This document shows, piece by piece, positions 42,316 to 63,021 of a stretch of DNA of 64,000 bases. Origin of the DNA: Spirochaetota bacterium. Lineage in GTDB: Bacteria; Spirochaetota; UBA4802; UBA5550. Numbering within the stretch: position 1 is the stretch's first letter; the number at the start of each line of letters is the position of its first letter. The notes under the pieces were generated by a model. The model searched no databases. It saw only the letters and a program-made list of their open reading frames with translations, and had not been told where the DNA came from. Location: positions 62,001 through 126,000 of the forward strand of contig JAGNKX010000003.1 of the NCBI GenBank assembly GCA_017999915.1. The letters are read 5' to 3'. Both the position numbers and the translations under genes were made by a program.

Positions 42316-42430
42316 CGCTTTTTTCTTGACTGTGGAGCGGATGCCGGTATAGTTAACCCGGAGCCGGCTGAAGAAGCCCCTCCGGGCCTGCGTGACGCAG
42401 ACCGGCTCACTACCCCGCTCAGGTCAAGGC

Positions 42431-44371
42431 ATGGGCAATCAGGAAGAAATAAAGAAAATCGAGCGCCGCGCCCGCTCCCTGCTTACCACCAAGGACATCC
42501 CGCAGAACAAGCAGGATGTGGTGCGCACCCTCATGAATAACAGGCAGCTGAAGCCGCGGGAAAAATACCAGGCCATTATCGAGCTGGTCCAGTCCTGTCC
42601 CGACAAGAAATCGGTCCTTTACCAGGATGAGGCGGTCAAGCCCGAGCCGGCCAAAAAGAAAAAGGGATCGCCGTCAAAGGCCGTGGAAAGCAAGTCGGTT
42701 CCGGAGCTGTTCGCGCCGACTGAAACGTCATACTATGTTGATCATCTCTACCGCAAGTACGGCGAATCCAGGCTTTTTAAGAAGCGCATCCTGGTCCATC
42801 GCAACAACCGCATCGGCATCGGTTTTCGCAGGCGTCTTGTCCCGACAAAGCAGCTGCTGAAGGTCATGAATTACCTGGCGGGGGTCCAGAGCGGCATAAC
42901 GGGCAGGCTCGTCGTACTCACCATGGAAATCATCAAGGATCCGAGCGTGTCGGATCCCCTGGTGTTTAACCACCTCCGCCTCGTGCGGAAATGGCTAGTC
43001 GAAACGCCCCTGATAAACCTGAAGTATGATGTCATAAAATGGATGGAGCGCCCCCAGTTCGAGCGGGAGCTGAAATCATGGGTTTCCTGGTTTTTTTCGT
43101 TCCTGAGGCTGGATGGCGATCTGCGGGAGCGGATAATAACCGATGTGGAGACGCGTCTGCGGGCGCAGGACGATCTCCGCAAGGATGACCTGATCGACGG
43201 CGAACCGGACGCGTCCCGGCGGGAAAAGGAGAAGCGGAACCTCGAAAAAGAAAAGCAGGTGTTTGAATACATGATGCTTTTCAGGTCGTTCTTGCCGATC
43301 AACGCGAAACAGGATTCCCTTTTGTCGAGGCGGCTGAAAGAGGAATTCGGCTTCGGCGGTTTCACGGAGCTGGTACTCGCGATGGAGGAGGCGCTGGCGT
43401 TCCAGAGGCCTGTCAGCCAGGAGGAGATCGTCGCTTATTACAGGATCGAAGCGCCCTTCGTGAATGTCGTGGCCTGGGACTACAGCGAGGATTACCTGGT
43501 CACCGTCGGGAAGGACCCTGAATCCCTGCAGAAAAAAAAGAAGGATTCACTGCGGAAAGTCGCCGAGCCCTTTGAAACCCTGGCCAGGCTGCTTCGGCAC
43601 GACGACGGCGGACGGAACATTCTCATCAAGGCCGTGGAGGACCAGTGGCGGTACATCGATAAAAAGCATCATGATCCGAAGACGATGTACAATGATAATT
43701 TCATCGGCTTCCTTGACGCGCTGGTCCAGTATTTCAAGAACCTGTACCTGCCGCTCCTTGAAGGCACCACCATAGCCTTCCGTGACATGGGCAGGGTGGA
43801 ATTAGAGGGATCGCTTTTTTCATTCGATTATTTTCAGAAGCACCTGGCGCTTTTCAACAAAATCCTCGACCAGATGCATTTTTTCAGGACCAATAATCCC
43901 ACCCTGGCCCTGACCAGGGAAGAGGCCAGGCAGGTAATGAAAAGCCAGACCGGCAAGCAGGCGGAAACCGGCCGCTTCATCCGCTCCATCGGCGATTGCT
44001 TTTACCTGATCGGCAGGGAGCTGCAGACGGTGTTTGACCAGCACCGCCGGTGGGCCGCCGGCAGGAGCAGCCTGGCCGGCGTCGAGCCGGCCCGGGACCC
44101 CCTCAAGAACCGTATCGCGGATGACGCCGGCGAGCGGGGAAGGCCGATCCCGTTCCACGACTGCATGATCATGGAAGTGAAGAACGGCACCGCCCTGTCC
44201 AAGGAATTGACGGGTAAACGTGTAATGGAGGATTCCCTCTTCGACGGCATCTTCGTGCGCATGAACGCTTTTGCCTACCAGGCGGCCTATGAATGCATGA
44301 GCGAGCGCCTGGCCTCCGACCTTGACGAGAGAAAGGCACTTTTGAAAAAAATAGAAGACGCGCCTGCATAA
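42431..44371 (+). CDS. Large cytoplasmic protein of unknown function
   Basis: 646 residues, no signal peptide or clear membrane helix. It begins MGNQEEIKKIERRARSLL, has a lysine-rich linker at ~80-95, two arginine/lysine-rich blocks and many predicted helices; near the C-terminus HDCMIMEVKNG and LTGKRVMEDSLFDGIFVRM look conserved-like. I recognise no domain. It follows the OmpA gene by ~115 bases on the same strand and precedes a MATE transporter. Confidence 0.72.
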   Translation: MGNQEEIKKIERRARSLLTTKDIPQNKQDVVRTLMNNRQLKPREKYQAIIELVQSCPDKKSVLYQDEAVKPEPAKKKKGSPSKAVESKSVPELFAPTETSYYVDHLYRKYGESRLFKKRILVHRNNRIGIGFRRRLVPTKQLLKVMNYLAGVQSGITGRLVVLTMEIIKDPSVSDPLVFNHLRLVRKWLVETPLINLKYDVIKWMERPQFERELKSWVSWFFSFLRLDGDLRERIITDVETRLRAQDDLRKDDLIDGEPDASRREKEKRNLEKEKQVFEYMMLFRSFLPINAKQDSLLSRRLKEEFGFGGFTELVLAMEEALAFQRPVSQEEIVAYYRIEAPFVNVVAWDYSEDYLVTVGKDPESLQKKKKDSLRKVAEPFETLARLLRHDDGGRNILIKAVEDQWRYIDKKHHDPKTMYNDNFIGFLDALVQYFKNLYLPLLEGTTIAFRDMGRVELEGSLFSFDYFQKHLALFNKILDQMHFFRTNNPTLALTREEARQVMKSQTGKQAETGRFIRSIGDCFYLIGRELQTVFDQHRRWAAGRSSLAGVEPARDPLKNRIADDAGERGRPIPFHDCMIMEVKNGTALSKELTGKRVMEDSLFDGIFVRMNAFAYQAAYECMSERLASDLDERKALLKKIEDAPA

Positions 44372-46699: not shown

Positions 46700-48244
46700 A
46701 TGAACAAGCGCAGGCCTGTACTATTCATCATGATGTTCCTTTTGTCGTGCGGCTTGGTTGATTCGGAAGCAAAGGTGAAAACATCGAACCTGGCCGGGTC
46801 ATGGTATCCGTCCGACGCGGGGCAGCTGAAGGAGCAGATCGATACCCTCCTGGCGGGGGCGCAGCCCCGCAGAATTGACAGGGAGCCCCTTGCGCTTATC
46901 ATGCCCCACGCCGGGTATGTGTATTCTGGCAAGACAGCTGCACAGGGTTATCGCATAATCGGCGCCGCGGGGAAGCCTGCCATTGCGTCAAGGCTCATAG
47001 TCATCCTGGGTCCGTCCCACTACAGCGCCTTCAGGGGCTGCTCCTTGCTGGAAGCGGAGTATTATGAAACGCCCCTGGGCAAGGTAAAATTGAACCGCGA
47101 GGCGGCCGAAATCCTTGCCGGAGACGGCCTGTTCAGGAAAAACACCACCGCCTTCGAGCGGGAACATTCCATAGAGATCCATCTTCCCTATCTGCAAAGG
47201 ATATTCGGCAACAGGCTGAGAAAGGACGTCCAGGTCCTTCCCGTGCTGGTGGGCGACCTCGATGACGCTGACGCGAAAAAGGCCGCGGCCAGGCTTGCCG
47301 AGGCAACGGCACGCTCTGACCCCTTTTTTATCATCAGTACCGATTTCACCCATTATGGACCCAATTTCGGTTACGAGCCCTTTAAGAATGCCGGGGGTCA
47401 GAGCACCTCTGCCAGGATCAAGGGCCTGGATGACGGAGCCATAGACCTTATTATAAAGAAGGATATCGCCGGTTTTACCGGCTACTGCGAAAAGACCGGG
47501 GCCACCATCTGCGGCAGGAACCCCATTCGCATAGCCCTGGCCCTGCCCATTGGCGGCTTCAGGGCGGAGAAGATCGCCTATGACACTTCGGGACGCGTCA
47601 CCGGCGATTACGCCAATTCCGTGAGCTACGCATCCATCCTTTTGTCCGGACGCCTCGAGGCGTCCCGGTTCGGCGACAGGGAGGAGGCCCTTCTTTCCGA
47701 CAAGGACCGGCAATTCCTCCTCAGGGCCGCCCGGGACAACATCGCTTCGTGGCTCAAAAAGAGAAGGGGCATACAGATCTTCCCCACGGACGCCCCTCCG
47801 GCCCTGCTTGAAAAGCGAGGCGTCTTCGTCACCCTGAAGAAGCATGGCCGGCTGCGGGGATGCATCGGCTACCTGACCGGGATCAAGCCCCTTATCCTGG
47901 CGGTACTGGATAATTCCTACAACGCCGCCTTCGAGGACCCGAGATTCGGGCCGGTCACGGAGGATGAGCTCCCGGCGATAACTATCGAAATATCGGTGCT
48001 CACCGAGCCTGTGCGGGTGAAGTCAGTGGATGAGATCAAGGTGGGAAGGGACGGCCTCATCATAGAGCGGGGGTTCTACCGAGGGCTCCTTCTGCCCCAG
48101 GTGCCGGTGGAGCAGGGATGGGACCGCAGGGCCTTCCTGGATGGAACATGCCAGAAGGCGGGGCTTCCCTCCAATGCGTGGAAGGACAAGGAGACGAAGA
48201 TATCTCGGTTCCAGGCCGTCGTTTTCGGCGAGGAGAAGCAATGA
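46700..48244 (+). CDS. amrB: Memo-AMMECR1 fusion (AmmeMemoRadiSam B plus A), predicted lipoprotein
   Basis: 514 residues. A Sec lipoprotein leader (MNKRRPVLFIMMFLLSC, Cys17) is followed by a Memo domain (~25-325) whose three metal ligands are all present: His70 (MPHAGYVYSG), His107 (ILGPSHY) and Cys271 (TICGRNP). Residues ~335-512 form an AMMECR1 domain with LKKHGRLRGCIGYL. A and B proteins are usually separate; here they are fused and apparently exported. AAGGTG fixes the start at 46700. The stop overlaps the next ATG (ATGA). Confidence 0.92.
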   Translation: MNKRRPVLFIMMFLLSCGLVDSEAKVKTSNLAGSWYPSDAGQLKEQIDTLLAGAQPRRIDREPLALIMPHAGYVYSGKTAAQGYRIIGAAGKPAIASRLIVILGPSHYSAFRGCSLLEAEYYETPLGKVKLNREAAEILAGDGLFRKNTTAFEREHSIEIHLPYLQRIFGNRLRKDVQVLPVLVGDLDDADAKKAAARLAEATARSDPFFIISTDFTHYGPNFGYEPFKNAGGQSTSARIKGLDDGAIDLIIKKDIAGFTGYCEKTGATICGRNPIRIALALPIGGFRAEKIAYDTSGRVTGDYANSVSYASILLSGRLEASRFGDREEALLSDKDRQFLLRAARDNIASWLKKRRGIQIFPTDAPPALLEKRGVFVTLKKHGRLRGCIGYLTGIKPLILAVLDNSYNAAFEDPRFGPVTEDELPAITIEISVLTEPVRVKSVDEIKVGRDGLIIERGFYRGLLLPQVPVEQGWDRRAFLDGTCQKAGLPSNAWKDKETKISRFQAVVFGEEKQ

Positions 48245-49389
48245 AAAAAGCGGCGCGTGGGCTGATGGGGCGGCGCGAGTTCCTGGGGCGCTCCGGCCGG
48301 GGGATGTGTCTCCTTGCCTTGGGCGCCATGGGCCTCGAAGGCTGCTCTGACACCTACTGCCAGTCAGCCGGGGATTATTATATCAAGCCCGCGAAGATGT
48401 GGACCAGGGCCGAGGACGGAGCGGTGCAGTGCCGCCTCTGTCCCAACGGCTGCCGCCTCGACGACGGCGAAAGGGGAATCTGCCGCGTGAGGAAGAATAT
48501 CAAGGGGAGCCTCTACACACTGGTCTATTCCCGCATAGCGGCTGCCCACATTGACCCCATAGAGAAGAAGCCCTTCTTTCATTTCCTGCCCGGATCCACG
48601 GCCTGTTCCGTGGCCACCGCCGGGTGCAACATCTCCTGCCGGTTCTGCCAGAACTGGCAGATCTCCCAGTCGAACCCGGAAGACCTGGACGCGGTGCGGA
48701 TAACGCCGGAGGACCTTTCGCAACGGGCGCGCACAGCCGGGTCACAGGTGGTGGCTTTTACCTACAACGAGCCCACGGTTCAGTTCGAGTATATCCTTGA
48801 CGCTTCTGCGGCGGCCCGGAGCAGCGGCCTCAAATCGGTCATCATCTCCAACGGATACATCATGCCCGAGGCGGGTAAGATGCTCGCCCGGGGCCTTGAC
48901 GCAATAAAGATCGACCTCAAGGCGTTCTCGGAGAACTTCTATGGAACCATCTGCGGCGGCAGGCTCAAGCCGGTGCTGGACAACCTGGTCGCCGTTCATT
49001 CGACGGGAAAGTGGATCGAGATAGTCGTGCTTGTCATCCCCACCCTGAACGATTCGGCGGCCGAGATAAGGCGGATGTCGGCGTGGGTGCGGAAGAACCT
49101 CTCGCAGGACGTGCCCATGCACTTCACCAGGTTCCGCGCCATGTACAGGATCCAGAACCTGCCCCCCACGCCGGTGTCCACACTGGAGATGTGCCGCGCC
49201 ATCGCGAAGGAAGAGGGGATCCGCTATCCCTATGTGGGAAACGTCAACGGCCATAAATGGGAGAACACCTACTGCCACCACTGCGGCAAGATGATCATCC
49301 AGAGGAGCGGCTTCTTCCACGTGGAGAACAAGGTCAGGGGAGGGGCCTGCCCTTTCTGCAAGACGAGGATACCGGGGGTTTGGGCGTGA
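48241..49389 (+). CDS. amrS: AmmeMemoRadiSam radical SAM enzyme with Tat/lipoprotein leader
   Basis: 382 residues. The N-terminus MGRREFLGRSGRGMCLLALG has a twin-arginine pair (Arg11-Arg12, RREFLG) and a hydrophobic stretch ending in LEGC (Cys35), i.e. a Tat signal with lipobox. Then cysteines C64, C67, C71 and C81 (CRLCPNGCRL...ICRVR) and the radical SAM cluster motif C129-x3-C133-x2-C136. The family is related to pyruvate-formate-lyase activating enzymes. Start overlaps the fusion gene (ATGA) and stop overlaps the next gene (GTGA). Confidence 0.93.
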   Translation: MKKAARGLMGRREFLGRSGRGMCLLALGAMGLEGCSDTYCQSAGDYYIKPAKMWTRAEDGAVQCRLCPNGCRLDDGERGICRVRKNIKGSLYTLVYSRIAAAHIDPIEKKPFFHFLPGSTACSVATAGCNISCRFCQNWQISQSNPEDLDAVRITPEDLSQRARTAGSQVVAFTYNEPTVQFEYILDASAAARSSGLKSVIISNGYIMPEAGKMLARGLDAIKIDLKAFSENFYGTICGGRLKPVLDNLVAVHSTGKWIEIVVLVIPTLNDSAAEIRRMSAWVRKNLSQDVPMHFTRFRAMYRIQNLPPTPVSTLEMCRAIAKEEGIRYPYVGNVNGHKWENTYCHHCGKMIIQRSGFFHVENKVRGGACPFCKTRIPGVWA

Positions 49390-51596
49390 TCCCGGCGGGG
49401 CGGCGCGCCGCCATGGCCATAGCCTTTTTGATGGGCCTGGCCGCCGCCATGGCCCAGGTTATCCTTATCCGCGAGCTCCTGGTTCTCTGCCGCGGCAACG
49501 AGCTCATCATCGGCATGATATTCTCCTCCTGGTTCCTCGGTATTTACCTGGGGGCCCGCTTCAATCCCGCGGGAGAGGGCCCGGCTCTGTGGCGGCGCGT
49601 GCTCCTCTCACTGGTCATGCTTCCCCTGGCGCTGGCGCTTTCAGTCTACGGCGCCCATGGCCTCGCCATCCTGCTGCCCCGCACCGTGGGAACCTTCTAC
49701 TCATTTTCAGCGGAGCTGGTCCTGGCCCTCCTTTTCACGGCGCCGGTGAGCTTTTTCGTCGGATTTTTCTTTCCGCCCCTGGTCTCATTGGCCTCCGTCG
49801 AGATGAAGGAGGTTTCCGGTGGGACCATGTTTTACGCGGAGTCCCTCGGCTCCTTTGCCGGGGCCATGGTCTTTTCTTTTATTTTGATCACCATCGCCAA
49901 TCCCCTGGCCATAGCCATGGGCTTGCTGTCAATATCATCGGCAGCGGCGCTCTGGCTGATAAAGGAGAAGAAGCTTATACCCCTGGTCCTGGTGCCCCTG
50001 GCCATAATGGTATTTTCAAGCACGATAGAAAAGGGAATCTTCACGGAGGTATGGAACAGGACCCATACTGGAAAGCTTGTCCATTACCAGCGGACCAGGT
50101 ACCAGACCGTGGCTGTTGAAAGGGCGGCCGAAACGGTGAGCGTGTACGGGGACGGCATCCTCCTCTATACCCTGCCGGACCGGTACGAGTCCCGGGGGCT
50201 CTTTCACCTGGTCAATGCCCTGCGGGAAGGCCGTGGGAATGTCCTACTCATGGGATCGGGGCCGGGATCGCTCCTCCACAACCTGCTCAACACCGGCATC
50301 GGCAGGCTCCGGTATGTAGAGCACGACCCTGAGCTCTGGGACGCTGTTCGCCCCTTTCTGAAAAAACTCTATCCGCCCGGGAACGGCAGCGTTCTCTCGG
50401 TGGTGCGCCGGGACCTGCGCCATTACCTGACCGGTACGCCGGAGCGCTTTGACATGATCATCAACCTCCCGCCGGCGCCGGAGAACATCATGGTGAATCG
50501 CTTCTACACCAGGGAGTTCTACGGCCTCTGCAAAAAGCGCCTGGCGACAAACGGCATTTTCATAACGGCCCTTCACGGGTTCAGCAATTACATGGCCCCT
50601 GACACGCGGAACTACATAGCTTCCATGTACCGGGCCTTCGCGGCTGAATTCCCCGATCATCTCCGGACGTCCGGCGAGACAATCTATCTTATAGGCGCCG
50701 CGGGGAAGGGGGTCCTGCCCGATGGTGGCGAGGCACTCATCGGCCGGTACGGGAAGAAGCTGCCTCTCGCCGGCGGGCCCTACGAGGAGGAGATCACCGG
50801 GAATTTTTCCCCTGAGGAGTTCCGGGCCTATTTCGAGAAGTCCCAGCTCGATTATTTCGGGAGGGTCATGGCGCCCCTTCTGAAAACCATCGATGAAAAC
50901 AGGGACCTGCAGCCCGGGGCATACTGGAAGAACATCATTCTCTCCGCCTTCAGGGAAGGGTCGGTCATGCGCGGCCTGATCGGGGCAGGGCCGGTCCTCC
51001 TGGTCTTCATGATAATACTCAGCGCCATCGCTCTCATGGACGTGAAGCGGCGCCACGGAATGGAGCGCCTCACCGAGGGATTCGTGATCTATTCCACCGG
51101 CCTTATCAGCATGTCCCTGATGCTCATCATGATCGTGCTCTACCAGAATGCCCATGGCATGGTCTATTTCCGCATATCCCTGATAAACACGGTGTTCATG
51201 GCGGGCCTCACGGCCGGGAGCTTCTCCTCCACCCGGAGGAGCGGCCTCGGGCTCCGCCTGCTGCTGCCAGGGATCGCCGTTGCGGCGGCCATGATCCTTG
51301 CCTCAACGTGGATATGGGCTGACCCGCTTTTCTGGTTCCTTCTCACGCTCTTTTCATTTATTTGCGGCGCGGTCTTTCCGGCGCTGTTCAGAACAGCTGG
51401 GCCGGGGTCGCCCCTGGCCACGGCGTCCGTGCTGGACTCGATGGATCATTTTGGCGCCATCGCCGGGTCGCTCCTCACGGTCATGGTGTTTCTCCCCATG
51501 GCCGGTATCCGGGGGACGCTGATTCTGGTCATGGTGATTGCCGTGCCTGCGATTATCTTATCATTTGTAATGCCCCGGACCAGGGCAAGGCTTTAA
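49386..51596 (+). CDS. Multi-pass membrane protein with spermidine-synthase-like domain
   Basis: 736 residues from the GTG that overlaps the amrS stop. About six or seven helices (AFLMGLAAAMAQVILIREL, ...) precede a soluble Rossmann domain at ~270-400 with NVLLMGSGPGSLLHNLL (SAM/dcSAM-binding loop) and YVEHDPELW (acidic end of strand 2), as in SpeE-type aminopropyltransferases and methyltransferases. Another five or more helices follow. Active-site acid residues for putrescine binding are not evident, so a membrane methyltransferase or transporter-linked enzyme is as likely. Last gene of the operon. Confidence 0.88.
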   Translation: MIPAGRRAAMAIAFLMGLAAAMAQVILIRELLVLCRGNELIIGMIFSSWFLGIYLGARFNPAGEGPALWRRVLLSLVMLPLALALSVYGAHGLAILLPRTVGTFYSFSAELVLALLFTAPVSFFVGFFFPPLVSLASVEMKEVSGGTMFYAESLGSFAGAMVFSFILITIANPLAIAMGLLSISSAAALWLIKEKKLIPLVLVPLAIMVFSSTIEKGIFTEVWNRTHTGKLVHYQRTRYQTVAVERAAETVSVYGDGILLYTLPDRYESRGLFHLVNALREGRGNVLLMGSGPGSLLHNLLNTGIGRLRYVEHDPELWDAVRPFLKKLYPPGNGSVLSVVRRDLRHYLTGTPERFDMIINLPPAPENIMVNRFYTREFYGLCKKRLATNGIFITALHGFSNYMAPDTRNYIASMYRAFAAEFPDHLRTSGETIYLIGAAGKGVLPDGGEALIGRYGKKLPLAGGPYEEEITGNFSPEEFRAYFEKSQLDYFGRVMAPLLKTIDENRDLQPGAYWKNIILSAFREGSVMRGLIGAGPVLLVFMIILSAIALMDVKRRHGMERLTEGFVIYSTGLISMSLMLIMIVLYQNAHGMVYFRISLINTVFMAGLTAGSFSSTRRSGLGLRLLLPGIAVAAAMILASTWIWADPLFWFLLTLFSFICGAVFPALFRTAGPGSPLATASVLDSMDHFGAIAGSLLTVMVFLPMAGIRGTLILVMVIAVPAIILSFVMPRTRARL

Positions 51597-51707
51597 CCGG
51601 GACCCGGGTGGGGTTGTGCGAGGAGGCCATAGCCCCGGGTTTAAACCCGGGGCTATGGCCTCCTCGCGCTTCTCTTTCCCCCACTCGCTCAATCGCCGCG
51701 ACGGGCT
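51597..51707 (+). repeat. GC-rich dispersed repeat (GCGAGG family), copy 2, with a perfect 50-bp palindrome
   Basis: CCGGGACCCGGG (51597-51608), then a perfect palindrome 51618-51667 with 25-bp arms beginning GCGAGGAGGCCATAGCC, then a C/T-rich stretch and CGCCGCGACGGGCT. It starts right after the operon stop codon. Same block order at 63045-63160, where the hairpin stem has another sequence. Confidence 0.8.
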
Positions 51708-61869: not shown

Positions 61870-63021
61870 ATGAGCACAAGGATCAATTCGGCGATACTGG
61901 TTATGGTTGCGGGGGCGGCGATTCTCTTCGGGTCGTGCGCCGACACGAAGCGTCTCAGCGAATCACAGATTCGCACGCTCTACAAGAATTCGCGGAGCCT
62001 GAATGAAACGGCGGCCTTTCTCGCCGGGACCCCGTTGAAGAGCACGTCCCCGCTCTATCGACTGACTGAAAACGATCAGTACCGGGCGTACCGGCTGTAT
62101 ATCGACGGCATCTGGGGCAACTACAAAAAAAAGAACCTCAATAATATCGAGGCATGGAGAAGGAAGCATGTAAAGGATGACGGCTCGGGCCTGGTCATGT
62201 ATCCCTTCAGCGGTCCCGATATCCTGAACGCCCTGGCCTTCTTTCCCGGGGCGGACGAGTATGTCATGATCGGCCTTGAGCAGCCCGGCAACGTCCCTGA
62301 TCCGCTTCGCTATCAGGGGCCCAATATCTACCTGGAGCTCTGGAAGATCAAGAACGCCCTGCGCACCATCCTTCAGTTGAACCTGTTCCGCACCATAGAG
62401 ATGGCCGCGGACTTCAAGGCCGATTCCTTCAGCAATATCACCGGCATCATGATGTTCTTTCTCGCGCGCTACGAATACCAGATCCTGGACATCCGGAAGG
62501 TCTATATCGACATCGACGGCGCCGTCCGGCGCGGGGACCCGAAGCCCGGCATGAAGAACGCCGACGGCGTGGAGTTTGTTTTCAGGAAGCGGGCCGGGTC
62601 GCCGGTCCAAATTGCGCGTTTTTTCAGCGTCGATCTTTCCGACGGTTCTCTCACCAGGCTCAAGGGCGTCTCGGCCTTTTTAAGCAAACGGAAAGGGTTC
62701 ACCACCTTTGTCAAGTCCGCGTCGTACCTGCTGAGCTATGATAATTTCAGGATACTCCGGTCATATCTCCTTGCGGGGAGCAGGTATATCCTCCAGGAGG
62801 ACAGCGGCATACCCTACAAGTTTTTTGACGCCGGGGATTGGAGACTGTCGTTCTACGGGACCTACCGGGTCATCGCCATATTTGCCAACCGCTTCCAGAG
62901 GGACCTCGACGCGGCAGTGAAGCTGAACAACAGGGGGCCGCTTCCCTTTGATTTCGGGTATGGCTTTGAGCCGGAGAAGTCGAACGTTATGATTGCGGTC
63001 AGGAAACCTAAAAAAGGCTAG
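61870..63021 (+). CDS. Lipoprotein of unknown function
   Basis: 383 residues, lipobox LFGSC (Cys near 23), AGGACAAGG before the ATG. The mature domain is alpha/beta with YPFSGPDILNALAFFPGADEYVMIGLEQPG and several Tyr-rich strands; I recognise no enzyme motif. It follows the sensor kinase by 54 bases on the same strand and may be its periplasmic partner, but that is inference from position only. Confidence 0.78.
   Translation: MSTRINSAILVMVAGAAILFGSCADTKRLSESQIRTLYKNSRSLNETAAFLAGTPLKSTSPLYRLTENDQYRAYRLYIDGIWGNYKKKNLNNIEAWRRKHVKDDGSGLVMYPFSGPDILNALAFFPGADEYVMIGLEQPGNVPDPLRYQGPNIYLELWKIKNALRTILQLNLFRTIEMAADFKADSFSNITGIMMFFLARYEYQILDIRKVYIDIDGAVRRGDPKPGMKNADGVEFVFRKRAGSPVQIARFFSVDLSDGSLTRLKGVSAFLSKRKGFTTFVKSASYLLSYDNFRILRSYLLAGSRYILQEDSGIPYKFFDAGDWRLSFYGTYRVIAIFANRFQRDLDAAVKLNNRGPLPFDFGYGFEPEKSNVMIAVRKPKKG

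Follow-up and report, generated by a model that had tools for sequence, protein, structure and literature searches.

An AmmeMemoRadiSam gene set with predicted export leaders and a linked SpeE-like membrane protein of MFS fold in a Spirochaetota genome

Memo and AMMECR1 are conserved to humans, yet to our knowledge the molecular function of neither protein is known. Both belong, as proteins B (TIGR04336) and A (TIGR04335), to the AmmeMemoRadiSam system, whose further part is a radical SAM protein (TIGR04337). The main comparative study of this Memo-AMMECR1-radical SAM context is reportedly that of Burroughs in 2019; PMC7159879 cites Burroughs et al., 2019 for it. The gene set described here lies in a 64,000-nt stretch of a Spirochaetota genome (the window). 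It resembles the known system in that all three families score above their cut-offs in one neighbourhood, with metal ligands and radical SAM motifs kept. It differs in that proteins B and A are fused behind an export leader, the radical SAM protein carries a Tat leader, and a gene for an MFS-fold membrane protein with a SpeE-fold insert (MFS-SpeE) is linked to them. We take the set to be an extracytoplasmic AmmeMemoRadiSam variant and do not claim its first description. Searches of the open-access literature returned no exported radical SAM protein and no MFS-SpeE transporter, and Burroughs 2019 may already describe the MFS-SpeE link; searches on transmembrane spermidine synthases gave nothing relevant, and matches on periplasmic SAM looked unrelated. 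If a radical SAM protein is exported, one has to ask how it would get SAM outside the cytoplasm.

The MFS-SpeE protein can itself be set against several described families. With PRK03612 and the spermidine synthase SpeE it shares the SpeE fold, an alignable N-terminal membrane half and the adenosyl-site residues, but it scores 83 against 472 bits, far below the equivalog cut-offs, its first catalytic Asp is mostly Asn among homologs, and its MFS fold is completed by seven additional helices at the C-terminus. Neither the catalytic Asp pair (DxxDP) nor the equivalog score of a polyamine aminopropyltransferase is found in it. NF037959 (fused MFS/spermidine synthase) likewise combines an MFS part with a SpeE-like domain and matches weakly in the SpeE-like region, but the score of 29.4 bits lies under the cut-off of 40 and the SpeE domain of our protein is inserted between helices 7 and 8. 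The whole membrane part superposes on MFS transporters, including 14-helix drug and lipid exporters (Z 23-29); unlike these, MFS-SpeE carries a SpeE-fold insert, predicted on the outer side.

The locus consists of three genes on the forward strand. The Memo-AMMECR1 fusion (positions 46700-48244, 514 aa) has AAGGTG ahead of its ATG at 46700, with GTG 46691 as an alternative in-frame start; the radical SAM protein occupies 48241-49389 (382 aa), and MFS-SpeE, with a GTG start, 49386-51596 (736 aa). The end of the fusion at 48244 overlaps the radical SAM ATG at 48241 as ATGA, and the end of the radical SAM gene at 49389 overlaps the MFS-SpeE GTG at 49386 as GTGA, so that gene calls and overlaps agree with the three overlapping genes of the first-pass annotation. 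The "fourth component" of that annotation counts domains; the genes are three. Directly after the last stop codon, on the same strand, a palindrome with a 20-bp stem (51619-51666), a single copy in the window, could be the transcription terminator of a three-gene operon. Elsewhere in the window, frames of 659 and 383 aa (42392-44371 and 61870-63021) have no Pfam match.

Both halves of the fusion score above the curated NCBIfam cut-offs (TIGR04336, 215.9 bits; TIGR04335, 187.2 bits). The Memo ligands H70, H107 and C271 are invariant in 36 relatives and align with H49, H81 and C244, the metal ligands of human MEMO1 (PMC11081632). The N-terminus, read directly as MNKRRPVLFIMMFLLSC-G, is a Sec leader with the lipobox LLSC. 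The fusion with a lipobox leader and three Memo metal ligands was thus correctly recognised at first pass. Sec or lipobox leaders are also found on the fusions of relatives, unlinked fusions included, apart from a few cases such as L155 and L090 that are exceptions or have uncertain starts, and are absent from the standalone Memo proteins L178 and L179 and from L001 of the window's own genome. An AF2 model of the fusion (mf337cf1190e0) reached a pLDDT of 90.4, with a pTM of 0.66 and a linker below 50, and a Memo-AMMECR1 interface taken from it was dropped on these last two figures.

The radical SAM protein scores 382.1 bits with TIGR04337 (NCBIfam, above the curated cut-off) and 66.4 bits with PF04055 (cut-off 29.5), and contains the cysteine motifs CxxCPxxC...C, CxxxCxxC and a C-terminal CxxC..CxxC. 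Its N-terminus, MKKAARGLMGRREFLGRSGRGMCLLALGAMGLEGC, holds a Tat motif (RREFL) and then a lipobox (GRREFLGRSG...LEGC). Judged by motif, it has the RRx[FL]-type leader and hydrophobic stretch of a Tat substrate, and TatC is encoded in the window's genome. Export signals had been mentioned at first pass in general terms, which understated this protein's own Tat-type leader and lipobox.

A scan of 84,980 species genomes provided 80 relatives of the radical SAM protein, from phyla that include Spirochaetota, Acidobacteriota, Aminicenantota, Zixibacteria, Krumholzibacteriota, Planctomycetota, Myxococcota, Chloroflexota and Armatimonadota. A strict hydrophobicity rule undercounted Tat leaders, so N-termini were instead read for motifs (RRx[FL]-type plus hydrophobic stretch); in the resulting list, L087 and L116 were spurious Tat matches and L107 was added by eye. 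A Tat motif is present in 70 relatives and a Sec-like leader in five (WOR-3/Hydrothermota, Elusimicrobia), while three Nitrospirota proteins (L087, L096, L108) have none and two (L064, L116) are unclear. Several close relatives of the window's protein also combine a Tat motif with a following lipobox, and across many phyla the Tat and Sec leaders stand at a similar distance ahead of the domain. The exported and leaderless groups can be placed on the radical SAM tree with two to three changes, against a shuffled mean of 16-19. The CxxxCxxC motif is intact in all exported-clade (88/88), leaderless (17/17) and Nitrospirota (3/3) sequences, and its conservation, like that of other invariant positions, is equal in the exported and leaderless clades, which argues for retained chemistry. 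With leaders recurring across phyla on both soluble proteins, the proposed move to the envelope is supported.

In the MFS-SpeE protein, the SpeE-like domain contains GSGPG and matches PF01564 with 37.9 bits (cut-off 22.9), and a Pfam search returned no MFS match. In an AlphaFold model built from 44 sequences (mean pLDDT 90.6, pTM 0.91), a SpeE-fold domain (approx. residues 230-533) sits between two sets of seven helices, giving 14 predicted membrane helices with N- and C-termini inside; helices 13 and 14, one long helix in the model, were divided on the basis of hydropathy and length. The domain is matched by Foldseek to spermidine synthases (1uir, E 1.6e-8). With VIA-align, the full length of the membrane part (residues 1-734) superposes on the MFS transporters SV2A (Z 28.6), FLVCR2 (Z 27.9) and MHAS2168 (Z 23.3), the last an Rv1410 homologue and 14-helix exporter; the match to SpeE has Z 24.7. 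The two six-helix bundles of the MFS fold are recognised in fold only, from the AF2 model and VIA-align. With the N-terminus set inside, the mean number of Lys+Arg residues is 15.1 for inner and 2.5 for outer loops, the inner count being the higher one in 44/44 homologs, and the loops flanking the SpeE-like domain on both sides fit the same topology; because of this charge bias, the domain is predicted to face outward.

The adenosyl-site residues E312, D314 and D343 are kept in 41-44 of the 44 homologs, and an NRFYTxEF motif is nearly invariant among them. At the first catalytic Asp position, 27 homologs have N and only 4 have D; at the second, 28 have an acidic residue (E or D). The window's protein carries L and A at these two sites. 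We judge from these residues that the domain probably binds an adenosyl compound and that an ordinary aminopropyltransferase role is unlikely. The "membrane SpeE-like enzyme" proposed earlier thus survives in its 736 residues, its GSGPG and its SpeE fold, but the description has to give way to a full MFS fold, a domain predicted to face outward and a first catalytic Asp that is mostly absent.

The MFS-SpeE gene is within reach at 54 of the 80 radical SAM loci (within 2.5 kb at 51) and present at 32 of the 37 loci having at least 4.5 kb on both sides. That the SpeE-like gene might be absent from the neighbourhood in relatives, which the first-pass annotation named as a ground for rejection, is true of some, but where it is missing or partial nearby it is encoded elsewhere in the genome in 20/27. 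Where no full fusion is nearby, 26/28 genomes hold full-length A+B (>500 bits), all of them fused except L155, in which the genes are adjacent. On the Spirochaetota side, a full MFS-SpeE gene is found in 20/59 genomes (at least 430 bits; the next match, 167, falls to ordinary SpeE proteins), and each of these 20 also has a radical SAM protein of the exported clade, adjacent in 18 and on separate contigs in G028 and G056. On the Nitrospirota side, MFS-SpeE occurs in 4/80 genomes, the same four that have an exported-clade radical SAM protein. These counts, with the two phyla taken as separate instances, are given without a significance figure, a Fisher test having been set aside because genomes within a phylum are related. 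The MFS-SpeE gene goes with the exported radical SAM clade and not with its leaderless, cytosolic counterpart, and the tie to the SpeE-like gene is genuine: it appears as linkage at loci, as co-occurrence in two phyla and in unlinked partners elsewhere in the genome.

Leader and SpeE-like gene do not always go together. In Nitrospirota L087 and L096, MFS-SpeE is linked and the fusion exported, yet the radical SAM protein, itself of the exported clade, is leaderless; a genome-wide search there found only a second radical SAM protein, also leaderless. On the Spirochaetota side, G056 likewise combines MFS-SpeE with an exported-clade radical SAM protein that has no leader. A third Nitrospirota genome (G078) has a Tat-bearing radical SAM protein beside MFS-SpeE plus a leaderless one (L146). 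Leaderless homologs with the same genes, which were expected to speak against an envelope system, therefore do exist in one Nitrospirota clade, but the leader is missing from the radical SAM protein alone; the fusion is exported there. MFS-SpeE follows the clade and the exported fusion more strictly than it follows the radical SAM leader, and in L087, L096 and G056 SAM supply to an exported enzyme is therefore not the whole story.

In the window's genome there are also separate Memo, AMMECR1 and radical SAM proteins without leaders (L001/L131, L005), a built-in cytosolic comparison. A PRK03612-like SpeE of the same genome (L128:1061-2596, C7) shares the N-terminal seven helices with MFS-SpeE and keeps a DFPDP motif. 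The same charge rule would put the SpeE domain of this protein outside as well, which is unexpected for a polyamine enzyme and serves as a warning on the topology reading. A third, unfused Memo-like protein of ~407 aa from this genome (L130:2241-3461, C10; PF01875, 69 bits) has a lipobox-like N-terminus and possibly represents another exported Memo family; Memo-like frames of about 420-460 aa are also found in Aminicenantes genomes.

A DUF362 gene is present at 35/81 loci, usually just upstream. A Tat-exported DUF362 protein was considered as a fourth component and rejected: since a Tat-like motif is found in just 6/38 and no such gene is near in the window, DUF362 is an accessory neighbour at most. 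An unlinked DUF362 protein of the window's genome (L121, C13) has the Tat-like motif RKDFL and scores best (117.6 bits) when compared with the DUF362 proteins encoded beside the exported system in other phyla. At L079:6070-7017 and 13 further loci, mostly of Aminicenantes, a DUF6599 (PF20244) protein with a leader-like N-terminus is encoded, often just upstream of the DUF362-radical SAM-MFS-SpeE genes.

Taken together, the computed leaders, motifs, fold, charge topology and co-occurrence make an envelope architecture of the gene set highly probable. As an explanation of the whole, we favour, with a probability of about 0.45, an extracytoplasmic AmmeMemoRadiSam variant in which MFS-SpeE supplies SAM or clears spent products. 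The fusion would leave through Sec, in the window as a lipoprotein; the radical SAM protein would leave through Tat in folded form, which would allow its iron-sulfur clusters to be put in place while it is still in the cytoplasm. The MFS part may carry S-adenosylmethionine, or a close adenosyl relative, outward, and the SpeE-like domain would hold SAM and hand it over to the exported enzyme; alternatively, the domain may clear the spent 5'-deoxyadenosine or methionine. The radical would then act on a substrate at the Memo metal site of the fusion or at the LRGCIG face of AMMECR1. That this substrate is a lipid, quinone or lipoprotein, as guessed at first pass, found no evidence in our analysis. 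SAM supply remains tentative because L087 and L096 weaken the view that MFS-SpeE just feeds an exported enzyme. Also counting against it, we know of no SAM pool or strong reductant in the periplasm, and the MFS fold is silent on cargo. Soil Acidobacteriota and Nitrospira are generally regarded as aerobic, and some loci lie in such lineages, where a radical SAM cluster outside the cytoplasm is hard to accommodate.

That MFS-SpeE stays with the exported fusion, also in genomes with a leaderless radical SAM protein, speaks for a possible, if less probable, version of the same envelope system, in which MFS-SpeE exports or processes a nucleoside-type product or substrate instead of SAM for the radical SAM enzyme. 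The domain may there take a group from an adenosyl donor and pass it to an envelope compound, with the radical SAM step on either side of the membrane. The kept adenosyl-site residues, the NRFYTxEF motif and the acidic second catalytic position suit such a role; the scarcity of Asp at the first position, the L and A of the window and the continued need for an adenosyl donor outside do not. If neither SAM nor a strong reductant is to be expected outside, the exported protein might no longer cleave SAM and might act as an electron-transfer protein, sensor or scaffold with kept clusters, the MFS-SpeE domain being a sensor or gate. Tat routinely exports folded iron-sulfur proteins, but the equal conservation of CxxxCxxC and other invariant positions in the exported and leaderless clades renders this improbable. 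Finally, the leader predictions rest on motif reading, and the leaders could be miscalled start regions of an ordinary cytosolic set beside an unrelated transporter gene. This we consider very improbable, given that similarly spaced leaders precede the domain in many phyla, that the leaderless paralogs, among them the one in the window's own genome, show none, and that the genes co-occur even where unlinked.

The broadest form of the favoured reading, that many bacterial phyla run radical SAM chemistry outside the cytoplasm with SAM from a dedicated MFS transporter whose outward SpeE-like domain holds it, is rather unlikely as it stands. If the radical SAM protein does work outside, this would overturn the common view that SAM-dependent radical chemistry takes place only in the cytoplasm, and would imply an unrecognised SAM route across the membrane. 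For Memo and AMMECR1, a compartment-shifted copy with its own transporter narrows the possible reaction, and the presence of exported and leaderless sets in the same cell offers a genetic handle on it.
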